From: Mucilaginibacter arboris | GTDB lineage: Bacteria; Bacteroidota; Bacteroidia; Sphingobacteriales; Sphingobacteriaceae | Direction of reading: 5' to 3' | Assembly: GCF_009754915.1 (NCBI RefSeq) | Contig: NZ_WPIK01000001.1 | Span: 1-64,000 of the forward strand | DNA: 64,000 nt | Part shown: positions 7,656 through 13,408 of the stretch, piece by piece | Layout of the letters: the number at the start of each line of letters is the position of its first letter | How positions within the stretch are numbered: position 1 is the stretch's first letter | Translations under genes and position numbers: made by a program | Notes under the pieces: model-generated | What the model was told of the DNA's origin: nothing | The model's database searches: none | The model's input: the letters and a program-made list of their open reading frames with translations, nothing else

Positions 7656-8978
7656 TCAAACTGAAGTTCCTTCCTCTGCCAATAAATATGCCTTAAAAGA
7701 AGCATAATCTGTTCCCAAAGCATCTGCTTGTTTTGGTTTTTCTTCCAGTTCCAGCACTTGTTCTGGTATTTCAATATCGGCAGCAATTTCATCCGAAAAA
7801 ACATCAGGGAATTTACAAGGATGGGCCGTGGCTAAAAAAACGCCAGTATTTTCCTGCTGCGGATGTTGCTTTTGCCAAGCATTAAGCGCCAGATAAGCAA
7901 TTGCGGTATGCGGACAAACTACATAATCATACAAATGGTAAACTTCTGCAATAGCATCTTTTGTTTGCTCATCATTAAAACTGTAACCACTAACTAATTT
8001 GGTTATTGCTGATTGATCTTCCTGAAACAGATCCATAATGCGTGCCCAATTGCTTGGATTGCCTACATCCATTGCATTGGAAATGGTTGCTACGGAAGGT
8101 TTGGGTTGATAAATACCGCCGTTTAAAAAAGTGGGAACGGTATCATTCGCGTTGGTGGCAGCAATAAACTGTTTCACCGGCAAACCCATTTTCCTGGCCA
8201 GCAAACCAGCGCCGATGTTGCCGAAATTTCCGCTGGGAACAGAGAAAACCACATCCTTTTTACCTTCCCGCTGCAATTGCGCAACGGCATTGAAATAGTA
8301 AAAAGTTTGGGGGATTAAACGGGAAATATTGATGGAATTAGCAGAAGTCAGCCGGAATTTTTCATTCAGTTCTGCATCTACAAAAGCTTGTTTTACCAAT
8401 GCCTGGCAATCATCAAAAGTACCGTCAATTTCGATGGCACGAATGTTTTGTCCGTTGGTGGTTAACTGCAATTCCTGTATCGGGCTAACTTTTCCTTTCG
8501 GATATAAAATGGTAACCAAAGTGTTCGGCACGCCTAAAAAACCTAAAGCCACCGCGCCGCCGGTATCGCCGGAAGTGGCTACCAGAACATTCAGTTCTTT
8601 TTCACCTTCACGAAGAAAATAAGCCATTACGCGGCTCATAAAACGGGCGCCAAAATCTTTAAAAGCAAGCGATGGCCCGTGGAAAAGTTCGAGCACATAT
8701 TGATCTTCAGTCAGTTTTACAACCGGCGCCGGGAAGTTGATCGCATCATCAATAATTGCTTTTAAATCTCCGGAAGGAATAATGCCTTGCAGCAAATTAT
8801 CCGCAACGCGAAAAGCAATTTCGGGCAAAGAAAATTGGTGCAGGTTTTCGATGAAATCATCCGGCAAACGAGGTATTTCAACTGGCATATATAAGCCTTT
8901 ATCCTGCGGCAAACTGTTAAAAACAGCTTCCTGAAAAGATACTTCGTAAGTTTTATTATTGGTACTGTAGAGTTTCAT
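7656..8978 (-). CDS. thrC: Threonine synthase
   Basis: 440-residue PLP enzyme converting O-phosphohomoserine to threonine, the last step of the pathway encoded by this operon. The PLP lysine is K107 in GPSLAFKDFGARFM; LVATSGDTGGAVALGF and SVPSGNFGNIGAG bind the phosphates. Length fits the bacterial ThrC class that keeps an N-terminal domain. It is the third gene of thrABC, 84 bp behind thrB; the spacer contains only short purine-rich and ACTTACAACTTACAAC repeats. Expected control is through the attenuator before thrA. Confidence 0.97.
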   Translation of the reverse strand: MKLYSTNNKTYEVSFQEAVFNSLPQDKGLYMPVEIPRLPDDFIENLHQFSLPEIAFRVADNLLQGIIPSGDLKAIIDDAINFPAPVVKLTEDQYVLELFHGPSLAFKDFGARFMSRVMAYFLREGEKELNVLVATSGDTGGAVALGFLGVPNTLVTILYPKGKVSPIQELQLTTNGQNIRAIEIDGTFDDCQALVKQAFVDAELNEKFRLTSANSINISRLIPQTFYYFNAVAQLQREGKKDVVFSVPSGNFGNIGAGLLARKMGLPVKQFIAATNANDTVPTFLNGGIYQPKPSVATISNAMDVGNPSNWARIMDLFQEDQSAITKLVSGYSFNDEQTKDAIAEVYHLYDYVVCPHTAIAYLALNAWQKQHPQQENTGVFLATAHPCKFPDVFSDEIAADIEIPEQVLELEEKPKQADALGTDYASFKAYLLAEEGTSV

Positions 8979-9062: not shown

Positions 9063-9998
9063 CTAATCTAAAATAACCGGTCCGTTATTGTTAATTGGTG
9101 AAACATAAGTTTTGCTGGAAATTCCCAACGAAGTTAAATGTGATGCAATTTTTTGGGTGATAAAAGAAGCATTGGCTTCGGTTTTGGTGAAAGCAAAAAC
9201 CGAAGGGCCGGAACCGGAAATCCCGAAACTTACGGCACCGCTTTCCATCGCCATTTCGCGCATCTTATAAAAATCAGGAATTAAAATTGAACGAACAGGT
9301 TCTACCAGAATATCTTTCATGCTGCGGCCAATCAGGTCTATATCTTTCAGAAACAAACCGCTTACCAAACCGGCAATATTTCCCCATTGCGTTACGGCAT
9401 CTTTTAAAAATACTTTTTGTCGGATCATTTGCCTTGCATCTCGCGTTGGTACATCAACTTCCGGAAAAACGATGGCGCAATACAAACCTTCCGGATGCGG
9501 CAAGCGGATAATATCGAGCGGTTCATAACTTCTGATCAGCACAAAACCGCCTAATAAAGCTGGTGCAACATTATCTGCATGGCCGTATCCGCAAGCGAGT
9601 TCTTCGCCTTTCATGGCAAACGGAACGAGTTCCATTGGAGTTAGCGGATTATCAAGCAGATTATTTATCGCAAACAAACCCGCAACTGTACTCGCCGAAC
9701 TGGAACCCAAACCGCTGCCAATCGGCATTTTTTTGTGGAGTTCGATTTCGATACCTAAATCCGGCTGACCGATGTGGTTCAGATAATGTTTAACACTGGC
9801 GCTAACCGTATTCTTTGCAGCATCTAAAGGCAACCGGCCGTCATCTCCGGTAATTTTTTTTATGGTGATGCCTGATTTTTCCACTCTATGCATCACCACT
9901 TCATCTCCCGGCGCATTTACGGCAAAACCCAGTACATCATAACCGCAAACCACATTGGCAACAGTAGCCGGGGCAAATACTTTTATAGAATCTTTCAT
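9063..9998 (-). CDS. thrB: Homoserine kinase
   Basis: 311-residue GHMP-family kinase that phosphorylates homoserine. The ATP loop PIGSGLGSSSAST lies at 92-104, and the C-terminal GISGSGPSVFAF is the third GHMP motif. It lies between thrA and thrC with 58 and 84 bp gaps. A TC-type iterated motif copy (9159-9172) is embedded in codons for NASFIT near residue 277, showing how the DNA motif is accommodated in a coding frame. Confidence 0.97.
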   Translation of the reverse strand: MKDSIKVFAPATVANVVCGYDVLGFAVNAPGDEVVMHRVEKSGITIKKITGDDGRLPLDAAKNTVSASVKHYLNHIGQPDLGIEIELHKKMPIGSGLGSSSASTVAGLFAINNLLDNPLTPMELVPFAMKGEELACGYGHADNVAPALLGGFVLIRSYEPLDIIRLPHPEGLYCAIVFPEVDVPTRDARQMIRQKVFLKDAVTQWGNIAGLVSGLFLKDIDLIGRSMKDILVEPVRSILIPDFYKMREMAMESGAVSFGISGSGPSVFAFTKTEANASFITQKIASHLTSLGISSKTYVSPINNNGPVILD

Positions 9999-10056: not shown

Positions 10057-12507
10057 TTAATGTGCACCAACATTTACCAAATCAGCAAAAACACCGGCAG
10101 CAGTAACTTCGGCGCCAGCGCCTGGCCCTTTTACAACTAACGGACGTTCTTTATAACGTTCTGTGGTAAACGATATCACGTTATCACTGCCCGAAAGCGA
10201 GTAAAAAGCATGTCCGGCATCAACTTGCTGTAAAGAAATAGAAACTTCTCCGTTTTCTAATTTTCCAATGTAACGAAGCACTTTTCCGTTGCTTTCTGCT
10301 GCTGTTTTTATGCCGTTAAAATAAGCATCTTCCGCTTGTAAGGCTTCGTAAAATTCGGCTACTGTACCTGCTTCGATTGCTGTTTTTGGCAGCATATTTT
10401 CCAGCTTTACATCAGCTGCTTCTAACGGATAACCTGCATCACGTGCTAAAATCAGCATTTTTCGCATAAAATCCATTCCGCTTAAATCGTCGCGCGGATC
10501 AGGTTCTGTGTAACCTTTTTCCTGCGCTGTTTTCACCACATCATGGAAGTTTGCATCTCCTTTAAAATTGTTAAAAATAAAGGAAATCGTTCCAGATAAA
10601 ATAGCTTCAATTTTGATAATCCGGTCACCGGAAAGCATCAAATTTTTCAACGTCTGGATAATAGGCAAACCTGCGCCAACATTGGTTTCGTAGTAAAAGT
10701 CAACCCCATGGTTCCGGGCCGCATCTTTAAACTTTTGATATTGTTCGTAGCTGCCAGAATTACCGATCTTATTGCAGGTTACAATAGAAATATTCGAATT
10801 AAAAATCTTTTCATAAAAAGCAACCGGTTTCGGGCTGGCCGTATTATCAATAAAAACAGCATTTGGCAAGTTCATTTCCTTCATCCTTGCAACAAACAGT
10901 TCCAGTTCTGCTGTTTCTGCAGAAGCTTCTAACATTTCCTGCCAGTTATCCAGCGATAAACCATTATCATCAAAAAACATTTTACGCGTATTGCTGATGC
11001 CGGCAATTTTCACCTGGATACCATTGTTTTCCTGCAAAAAGTTACGGTGCGATTGGAGTTGCCTAAATAGGGTTTTGCCAATATTTCCGGTTCCCAAACA
11101 AAAAGCATGAAGCGTTTTATTTAGTTCGATAAAAAAAGCATCATGAACGGCGTTTAAAGCTTTGCCCAGATCAGGACGGGAAATAACGACAGAAATATTG
11201 TATTCTGATGAACCTTGCGCAATTGCCCGAACGTTTACGCCGTTTCTGCCCAAGGCATGGAACAACTTGCCCGACATACCCGGCGTTTGCTTCATATTCT
11301 CGCCTACAATAGCTAAAATGGAAAGATTTTGCTCAAAAACCGGTGCTTCCAGCTTTTTGGCAATCAGCTCCAGCTCAAATTCCTGCTCAATTAATTGTTG
11401 TGCTTTTAAAGCATTGGTTGGATGAATGGCAAACGTAATGCTGTGCTCAGAAGAAGATTGTGTGATTAAAATTACGTTGATCTGCTCGCGTGCCAACAAA
11501 CTGAACAACCTGCCGCTAAAACCAGCTTTGCCAACCATTCCGCTGCCTTCGAGGTTAATGATGCTGATCTCGTTAATAGAAGAAATCCCTTTAATGATTA
11601 AGTTTGAAGTGCCGCAATCATGTCTGATTACCGTTCCCGGAAAATCAGGTTGAAAAGTATTTTTGATAGCGATAGGGATGCGTTTTAAAAACGCCGGGAT
11701 CATGGTTGGCGGATAAATCACTTTGGCACCAAAGTAAGAAAGCTCCATTGCTTCTGTATAAGAAAGTTCCGGCAGCGGAAATGCTTTTTTTACCATCCTC
11801 GGGTCTGCCGTCATCATTCCGTTTACATCCGTCCAGATCTGGATTTCTTCCGCATTTAAAGCAGAACCGAAAATTGCTGCTGTGTAATCGCTCCCGCCAC
11901 GGCCCAAAGTTGTCATCCGGCCTTTTTCATTACTGGCAATAAATCCGGTCACAAAAAGTATTTTCCCTTTATTTTCGCTATAAAAGCTTTGAATTAAAAT
12001 TTCTGTTAATTCGGTTTGTACCCGCGCCTGGCCGAAATTGCTATCGGTTTTAATCAGTTCAGAAGCATCAACAAAACAAATTTCCTGCAAATATTGCTCA
12101 GCAATTTTACTGATCATAAAAGTAGAACAGCGTTCGCCATAACTTAATACCAAGTCTCGGGTTTGGGCAGTAAGTTCCTTTAAGCTGAAAATTCCTTGCA
12201 GCAAATCTTCCAGTTCATTAAAAAAAATCTTCAGTTTTGTAAAAACCGGATTTTGCCGCTGTACATCTAATAGTGTTTTTATCACTAAAAAATGGCGGTC
12301 TTCCAATTCTTTAAGGTAAGAAGAAAAATCTTCGCCTAAAGAAGCTTTATCCGCCATTTTAGACAGCAGGTTTGTAACACCGCTCATGGCAGAAAGTACA
12401 ACTATCGGATTACCAGAAACAGCAGCTTCTTTTTTAACAATTTCCAGTAGTGCCTGGATACTTTCGGGAGAACCTACGGATGTGCCTCCGAATTTTAATA
12501 CTTTCAT
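10057..12507 (-). CDS. thrA: Bifunctional aspartokinase / homoserine dehydrogenase
   Basis: 816 residues (E. coli ThrA 820). The aspartokinase domain (about 1-290) starts MKVLKFGGTSV and includes TTLGRGGSDYTAA. Two ACT-type regulatory units follow (about 315-455), for example EGSGMVGKAGFSGRLF and VGENMKQTPGMSGKLFHAL. The homoserine dehydrogenase domain (about 463-816) opens with the Rossmann motif LGTGNIGKTL and contains KIEAILSGTISFIFN and DPRDDLSGMD. It catalyses the first and third steps toward threonine and methionine. ACT domains imply allosteric feedback by threonine, and an attenuator upstream adds transcriptional control. The start ATG is 14 nt past the attenuator hairpin. Confidence 0.97.
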   Translation of the reverse strand: MKVLKFGGTSVGSPESIQALLEIVKKEAAVSGNPIVVLSAMSGVTNLLSKMADKASLGEDFSSYLKELEDRHFLVIKTLLDVQRQNPVFTKLKIFFNELEDLLQGIFSLKELTAQTRDLVLSYGERCSTFMISKIAEQYLQEICFVDASELIKTDSNFGQARVQTELTEILIQSFYSENKGKILFVTGFIASNEKGRMTTLGRGGSDYTAAIFGSALNAEEIQIWTDVNGMMTADPRMVKKAFPLPELSYTEAMELSYFGAKVIYPPTMIPAFLKRIPIAIKNTFQPDFPGTVIRHDCGTSNLIIKGISSINEISIINLEGSGMVGKAGFSGRLFSLLAREQINVILITQSSSEHSITFAIHPTNALKAQQLIEQEFELELIAKKLEAPVFEQNLSILAIVGENMKQTPGMSGKLFHALGRNGVNVRAIAQGSSEYNISVVISRPDLGKALNAVHDAFFIELNKTLHAFCLGTGNIGKTLFRQLQSHRNFLQENNGIQVKIAGISNTRKMFFDDNGLSLDNWQEMLEASAETAELELFVARMKEMNLPNAVFIDNTASPKPVAFYEKIFNSNISIVTCNKIGNSGSYEQYQKFKDAARNHGVDFYYETNVGAGLPIIQTLKNLMLSGDRIIKIEAILSGTISFIFNNFKGDANFHDVVKTAQEKGYTEPDPRDDLSGMDFMRKMLILARDAGYPLEAADVKLENMLPKTAIEAGTVAEFYEALQAEDAYFNGIKTAAESNGKVLRYIGKLENGEVSISLQQVDAGHAFYSLSGSDNVISFTTERYKERPLVVKGPGAGAEVTAAGVFADLVNVGAH

Positions 12508-12521
12508 AATAAGGGTTTAAC

Positions 12522-12557
12522 AAAAAAGCCTTCCTCTTTGCGGAGGAAGGCTTTTTA
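12522..12557 (-). terminator. Attenuator terminator of the thr operon
   Basis: On the minus strand AAAAAGCCTTCCTCCG, loop, GAGGAAGGCTTTTTT gives a strong hairpin with a terminal T-run, placed between the leader peptide and the thrA start. The 5' arm CCTTCCTCC is also exactly complementary to GGAGGAAGG at the end of the leader reading frame (12591-12599), so an alternative antiterminator can form. This is the classic arrangement for ribosome-mediated attenuation. Confidence 0.88.
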
Positions 12558-12587
12558 TGGTTTTTATCTTTATTTTTTTACCAAAAT

Positions 12588-12656
12588 CTATCCTTCCTCC
12601 GAAATATTGCCGGTGGTAGTAATAATGGTAATGATAATGGATTGATTGCTCAGCAT
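12588..12656 (-). CDS. thrL: thr operon leader peptide
   Basis: A 22-codon reading frame, ATG at 12656 and TAG at 12588-12590, encodes MLSNQSIIITIITTTGN followed by ISEEG. It contains five Ile codons and five Thr codons in a run of ten residues or so, very like the E. coli ThrL pattern ending TTTGN. Its last sense codons contain GGAGGAAGG, which can pair with the 5' arm of the terminator downstream. A ribosome stalled at Thr/Ile codons would leave this segment free to form the antiterminator; a ribosome reaching the stop would cover it and let the terminator fold. No Shine-Dalgarno is visible. Similarity to ThrL is by reading, not alignment. Confidence 0.85.
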   Translation of the reverse strand: MLSNQSIIITIITTTGNISEEG

Positions 12657-12733
12657 AAATTTGTCCTGGTTGAGGGCGGCGTAAAGTAAATACTTTGTTC
12701 TCAATTTTGCAACAGACAAATAATTTTTTTGTT

Positions 12734-12792: not shown

Positions 12793-13056
12793 ATGAAAAG
12801 TATATTGCTAAAAATTGATGATAAGCTTTTTGAGGAAACAGAGAAGCATGTTAAAAAATTGAAAATAAGCAGAAATAGTTTTATAAAAGAAGCTATTGCC
12901 ACTTATGCTAAAACTTTGTCTCGCAAGGAATGGGAAGAGCAGGTTCGACGTGAAGTTGAAATATTAAAAGCACATGATCCTGATAAAGAATTAAAACAAA
13001 TATTTCAAACTGCTTCCTTAATTGATATGCAAAAATATTTAGATGATGAATATTAA
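12793..13056 (+). CDS. MazE-like ribbon-helix-helix antitoxin
   Basis: 87 residues from the ATG at 12793. An upstream start eight codons earlier would place translation inside a motif repeat and is less likely. The N-terminal half (KSILLKIDDKLFEETEKH, then KISRNSFIKEAIATYA) looks like a ribbon-helix-helix DNA-binding fold; the C-terminal half is charged and helical as in toxin-neutralising tails. It overlaps the PemK/MazF toxin gene by 14 nt, typical of a TA operon. It probably autoregulates the operon by binding near its own start. Confidence 0.85.
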   Translation: MKSILLKIDDKLFEETEKHVKKLKISRNSFIKEAIATYAKTLSRKEWEEQVRREVEILKAHDPDKELKQIFQTASLIDMQKYLDDEY

Positions 13057-13408
13057 CCCGATACCGCTTCAATACGAAATATGGATTGCAGATCTAGACC
13101 CTGCAAGCGGAACTGAACCTGGAAAAATCCGTCCGGTTATCATTCTGCAAGCGGATGTTTTGCATTACGCTGGCCACACCTCTACTATTGCCTGCGCCGT
13201 TTCTTCTCAACCAAAAGAAGGCGTTTCCTTGATCCGGCAAAGAATTCAGCCTTCTGTAGAAAACGGACTACGAAAAGAATCTTATATTTTAATTGATCAA
13301 ATTCGCGCTTTGGATTTAATAAGATTACATCAAAAAATCGGAGAACTTGAAGAAGAAGCGATCAATACTTTGCGTCAAAACATTAAATCAATTTTATCTT
13401 TAGATTAA
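13043..13408 (+). CDS. PemK/MazF-type toxin (mRNA interferase)
   Basis: 121-residue PemK/MazF family protein. YEIWIADLDPASGTEPGKIRP is the family's N-terminal signature, with the R of IRP the catalytic arginine, and TIACAVSS follows in the core barrel. Members cleave mRNA at short sequence motifs. The start is within the last codons of the antitoxin (ATGATGAATATT; either ATG possible). Its stop codon TAA shares one base with the ATG of rsgA (TAATG at 13406-13410), so toxin and a ribosome-assembly GTPase appear translationally coupled, an odd union. All family residues look intact. Confidence 0.9.
   Translation: MMNINPIPLQYEIWIADLDPASGTEPGKIRPVIILQADVLHYAGHTSTIACAVSSQPKEGVSLIRQRIQPSVENGLRKESYILIDQIRALDLIRLHQKIGELEEEAINTLRQNIKSILSLD

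Follow-up and report, generated by a model that had tools for sequence, protein, structure and literature searches.

A predicted three-state, ribosome-mediated attenuator of the threonine operon in Mucilaginibacter arboris and its family

Does the gap upstream of the threonine operon of Mucilaginibacter arboris hold an attenuator worked by a ribosome on a leader peptide, and if so, between which RNA states would it choose? We refer to the whole stretch of DNA analysed here, 64,000 nt in length, as the window. The gap is bounded by thrA on one side and by a divergent ribbon-helix-helix/PemK-MazF-like pair on the other, and contains a leader reading frame on the minus strand (ATG CTG AGC AAT CAA TCC ATT ATC ATT ACC ATT ATT ACT ACC ACC GGC AAT ATT TCG GAG GAA GGA TAG). 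A sequence-only reading of this DNA had placed the attenuator at the correct coordinates, which belong to the minus strand, but had counted five Thr and five Ile codons, where a direct count gives 4 Thr and 6 Ile among the 22. Judged from the sequence, we consider it very probable (roughly 0.93) that the locus is a ribosome-mediated transcription attenuator of thrABC with three alternative RNA states. The reading frame, the pairing arms, their conservation, the covariation of segments 2 and 3, the geometry and the operon itself all find support in the sequence, and the features are collected in Table 1. No confident promoter can be assigned to the leader by a search for the Bacteroidota -7 motif TAnnTTTG, which is just twofold above shuffles upstream of the leaders and is not evident in the window. 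The divergent neighbours (12793-13408, plus strand), a ribbon-helix-helix gene that overlaps the PemK/MazF-like toxin gene after it, form a type II toxin-antitoxin pair.

Table 1. Features of the thr operon and its leader region in the window.
Feature	Positions	Strand	Basis or remark
thrC, threonine synthase	7656..8978	-	NCBIfam TIGR00260, above cut-off
thrB, homoserine kinase	9063..9998	-	NCBIfam, above cut-off
thrA, bifunctional aspartate kinase/homoserine dehydrogenase I, first gene of the operon	10057..12507	-	NCBIfam PRK09436.1, 1035 bits (cut-off 726)
Segment 4, terminator 3' arm GAGGAAGGCTTTTT and T run	12523..12536	-	Intrinsic terminator stem
Segment 3, terminator 5' arm AAAAAGCCTTCCTC	12543..12556	-	Complement of segment 2 runs on into the loop to 12541
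Outer 3' arm of 1:2 helix, TGGTAA, just past the stop codon	12578..12583	-	Fold, comparative
Leader reading frame, 22 codons, MLSNQSIIITIITTTGNISEEG	12588..12656	-	Read directly; ATG...TAG
Segment 2, antiterminator strand CGGAGGAAGG, last codons of the leader	12592..12601	-	Complementary to segment 3
Inner 5' arm of 1:2 helix, CCACCGG (last Thr codons and Gly)	12610..12616	-	Fold
Outer 5' arm of 1:2 helix, TTACCA, within the Ile/Thr codons	12626..12631	-	Fold; arms match within genera

The core of the predicted switch is a choice of partners for the 5' arm of an intrinsic terminator. This terminator (AAAAAGCCTTCCTC-CGCAAA-GAGGAAGGCTTTTT, 12523-12556) stands 15 nt from the ATG of thrA, and the region around it (12500-12680) folds with a z value of -2.45. 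At the end of the leader, the 9-mer GGAGGAAGG (12592-12600, minus strand) has a perfect complement within the terminator 5' arm, CCTTCCTCC. The only other match to this 9-mer in the 64 kb is that same arm (12542-12550, opposite strand), against a chance expectation of 0.16 matches. In the window, the 2:3 pairing available before segment 4 emerges has a calculated energy of -20.8 kcal/mol, and the 3:4 pairing of the terminator has -21.2 kcal/mol; since the two are nearly equal, timing would decide between them, as attenuation requires.

The arrangement is conserved across the family. ThrA homologues are present in 150 of the 151 same-family genomes searched, most of them encoding a full-length bifunctional ThrA; the upstream DNA was read for about 100 genomes, which gave 106 usable regions. 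In 98 of these 106, a Thr/Ile leader reading frame (at least 6 Thr plus Ile in 12 residues) has an intrinsic terminator downstream of it, which bears out the comparison with other Sphingobacteriaceae that the sequence-only reading had proposed as a check. With the threshold raised to at least 8 Thr plus Ile in 12 residues, the reading frame is found in 96 of 106 regions, compared with 1 of 2,117 dinucleotide shuffles. The remaining eight loci include two with a Thr-rich leader but no scored terminator (L021, L026), three with leaders of another design (L107-L109) and three in which no leader was seen (L105, L106, L110). Among named relatives, the one closest to the window is an uncultured Mucilaginibacter MAG, with 86% ThrA identity. 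Thr codons are a constant feature of the family leaders (mean 6.3 per leader, range 2-12) whereas Ile codons vary (mean 3.9, range 0-8), so that Thr is the expected signal and Ile an optional one.

The two strands that pair in the antiterminator change together. Most family leaders have GGAGGAAGG-like end codons opposite CCTTCCTC terminator arms, but there are two divergent classes of arm, YCCCGA (10 loci) and CTTCTCTC (4 loci), in which the leader end shows the corresponding alteration (GCGGGAC with GTCCCG, for instance, and CGAGGGAAG with CTTCTCTC). In 14 of the 14 loci of these two classes, which are not all independent because several are close relatives, pairing with the own partner is better than pairing of either half with canonical partners. 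For a further class with CCTTCCG arms, a preference for the own partner is seen in 2 of 8 loci; here the strand usually lies just past the stop codon, where the comparison is uninformative. The complementarity between leader end and terminator arm noted earlier from the window alone is thus confirmed, and extends to covarying arms across the family. Counted from the stop codon, the antiterminator strand occupies about -10 to -1, and the median distance to it from the last Thr codon is 11 nt, so that a ribosome stalled in the Thr codons should expose it and a ribosome at the stop codon should cover it. This spacing of stalled and finished ribosomes fits the earlier proposal that stalling frees the segment and completion covers it. 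By its complementarity, covariation and position, the strand is placed as the antiterminator of an attenuator would be.

What happens when no ribosome is on the leader depends on whether a further helix protects segment 2. The Thr/Ile codons of the window leader, like those of its relatives, are able to pair with a segment beyond the stop codon and so enclose the antiterminator strand; in the window, the inner arm CCACCGG also pairs, apart from one mismatch, with TCGGAGG (12596-12602). We consider it probable that the Thr/Ile codons and the post-stop segment form a protector helix, which completes a 1:2 / 2:3 / 3:4 logic. The switch could instead have two states and no functional protector helix: segments 2, 3 and 4 suffice by themselves for a choice between on and off, an untranslated leader would then antiterminate and leave expression on, and termination would come only from a ribosome at the stop codon, as the sequence-only reading had it. 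We think this unlikely. The minimum free energy fold of the window contains the protector helix together with the terminator, and the protector arms vary between genera in a concerted manner and match within them (GATTACC/GGTAATC, AACACCATAA/GTATGGTGTA and ATTACAACATC/TATGTTGTAAT). Redrawing the leader with synonymous codons weakens the protector pairing in most genera (genus-level t = -4.8, p = 2e-4, 17 genera), although the support from arm swaps is moderate, in that arms exchanged between genera pair only moderately worse and a third of them pair equally well. The leader, the pairing and the operon described earlier therefore stand, but the set of elements, which had been called complete, lacked this probable 1:2 helix.

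Three other explanations of the locus are each very improbable. The hairpin might simply terminate a neighbouring transcript in the ordinary way, with the Thr-rich reading frame incidental, and there are indeed T runs on both strands of the hairpin; yet the upstream neighbour of the leader is divergent, which leaves no gene there in need of a minus-strand terminator, and the leader and its complementary arm recur in the great majority of family loci and covary. A terminator/antiterminator pair, taken by itself, would fit equally well with a riboswitch-like leader that senses a metabolite or protein and leaves the short reading frame untranslated, but the conserved parts are the Thr coding content and the arms rather than an aptamer-like core, and no Rfam riboswitch matches this region, where the Rfam hits stay below threshold. 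The single riboswitch of the window is an unrelated SAM riboswitch (RF00162, 889-999, plus strand; 64.7 bits, gathering score 44.4). Finally, GGAGGAAGG resembles a Shine-Dalgarno sequence, and its role might be to bind ribosomes and not to antiterminate. We rejected this reading of its GGAGG because the window has no start codon at a suitable distance from it, and because the divergent classes have non-Shine-Dalgarno sequences there that have changed together with the terminator arm.

The three-state attenuator would operate as follows; translation of the leader, stalling of the ribosome, the kinetics, the efficiency of termination and the response to starvation are proposed features of the switch. 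With no ribosome on the leader (state 1), the 1:2 pairing would form, between the Thr/Ile codons and the post-stop segment and between the last Thr codons and segment 2, which would leave segment 3 available for the terminator, and transcription would stop. When Thr is scarce, and in this genome perhaps also Ile (state 2), a ribosome would stall in the Thr/Ile codons and disrupt 1:2; segment 2, about 11 nt past the last Thr codon, would be exposed and would capture segment 3 before segment 4 emerges (2:3), so that RNA polymerase would continue into thrA. With ample Thr (state 3), the ribosome would reach the stop codon and cover segment 2, allowing 3:4 to form and transcription to end.

The closest known counterpart is the thr attenuator of E. 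coli (thrL, RF00506), and the two have in common a short Thr/Ile leader reading frame before thrA-thrB-thrC, the last codons of which (GGTGCGGGC in E. coli, GGAGGAAGG in the window) are complementary to the terminator 5' arm. In E. coli K-12, which served as a control, the leader ends in GGTGCGGGC-TGA, where GGTGCGGGC complements the terminator arm GCCCGCACC. The arm sequences differ between the two systems, and thrL is unlike the leaders of the window family in length and Ile content. The Rfam Thr_leader model scores 37.7 bits in the window, where its gathering threshold is 55, and is above the cut-off in none of the 61 same-family genomes searched. A census based on this model was dropped: its sub-threshold matches are mostly not upstream of thrA, and they resemble generic terminators. 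By its predicted pairings, the window switch would work like the E. coli attenuator, yet it lies outside RF00506 as curated. The earlier suggestion that the peptide resembles ThrL, including a TTTGN sequence, holds in part. TTTGN is present in the window leader, but the likeness lies in the architecture; the match between the peptides is probably convergent, because among relatives only the TTG part recurs, and because ACCACCGG can serve the inner helix at the nucleotide level.

Regulatory codons that control transcription through a ribosome have been described outside Proteobacteria, as trp, his and ilv leader-peptide attenuators in Actinobacteria (PMC1262725) and as a His leader in Firmicutes (PMC2965389); these resemble the window system in mechanism, but belong to other operons and phyla and include no Bacteroidota thr operon. 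According to a 2010 survey, the only such systems on record at that time, apart from the Firmicutes case it presented, came from Proteobacteria and Actinobacteria (PMC2965389). Within Bacteroidota, a 2021 transcriptome of Flavobacterium psychrophilum gave clues of leader-peptide attenuation before amino-acid operons, drawn from the transcriptome and from structured 5' regions (PMC9723704). That species shares its phylum and the general mechanism with the window, but the main text of the study names no thr operon, and the thr leaders observed here outside the window family are without an intrinsic terminator, so that the design differs. Our literature search found no thr attenuator in Bacteroidota, although the phylum may be treated by Lopatovskaya et al. 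2010 (cited in PMC4833913). The description of such logic as uncommon outside Proteobacteria thus needs qualification, in that it is near-universal in this family and had already been suggested for another Bacteroidota species. The arrangement observed is real; the principle itself is not new.

Leaders are also found upstream of other amino-acid operons in the same family. The trpE gene of the window genome (L301) is preceded by the leader MNQNHNNNWQSLPKRKAGWCF and a terminator that is complementary to part of it. Reading frames with 2-3 Trp within 8 residues, many of them with Trp-Trp-Trp, are present in 21 of 25 family trpE upstream regions (L301-L325), compared with about 10% in shuffles, and in most cases an intrinsic terminator comes next, with a 5' arm that resembles, by eye, the complement of GCCGGG in the leader. 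From these sequences, the family trpE leaders look like a trp attenuator of the same design as the thr one. Upstream of hisG, the window genome (L326) has the leader MKKYFIYLHHHHHSTQV, and 4-6 His within 8 residues occur in 22 of 25 family regions (L326, L327, L329-L344, L346, L347, L349, L350), compared with 5 of 1,000 shuffles. Most of these have a hairpin at the stop codon (ATCGCC...GGCGAT) and another beyond it (GTTTC-TACGT-GAAAC), with matching changes in the arms; no intrinsic terminator was seen after the his leaders, and their hairpins have no Rfam match.

A design without an intrinsic terminator is also found upstream of thrA, in many genes of the same class in a phylum-wide sample and in one genus inside the window family (L107-L109, L129, L130, L134, L135, L137, L138, L140, L142, L143; L145-L151, L153, L155-L159, L170, L172, L175). 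The window attenuator is not of this kind. These Thr/Ile leaders, which have no Rfam family match, carry at their end a hairpin whose loop holds the stop codon (ACCCC-TTA-GGGGT, or with flipped arms in one family, f8, ACGGGG-TGA-CCCGT), usually followed by CATATMAT(CC). A strict pattern for the hairpin matches in just 8 of 149 genomes because the element varies, and the consensus fold of the class-B (terminator-less) thr alignment is too weak because the flipped-arm family misaligns. It is conceivable, at somewhat short of even odds, that leader-peptide control in Bacteroidota also takes a second form that lacks a terminator, comprising the class-B thr and the his leaders, for which one would expect a mechanism of the Rho type or one acting on translation. 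Such stop-codon hairpins without a terminator, in thr leaders elsewhere in the phylum and in his leaders here, may be new.

Translation in Bacteroidota starts largely without Shine-Dalgarno sites. Attenuation of the kind described here requires the leading ribosome to be close behind RNA polymerase, and a family-wide thr attenuator, together with the similar trp leaders, is comparative evidence for the coupling of transcription and translation in Bacteroidota. The thr attenuator offers a sequence-defined system, found in non-pathogenic bacteria, for testing such coupling, and the family loci provide covariation data on an RNA family not yet in Rfam.
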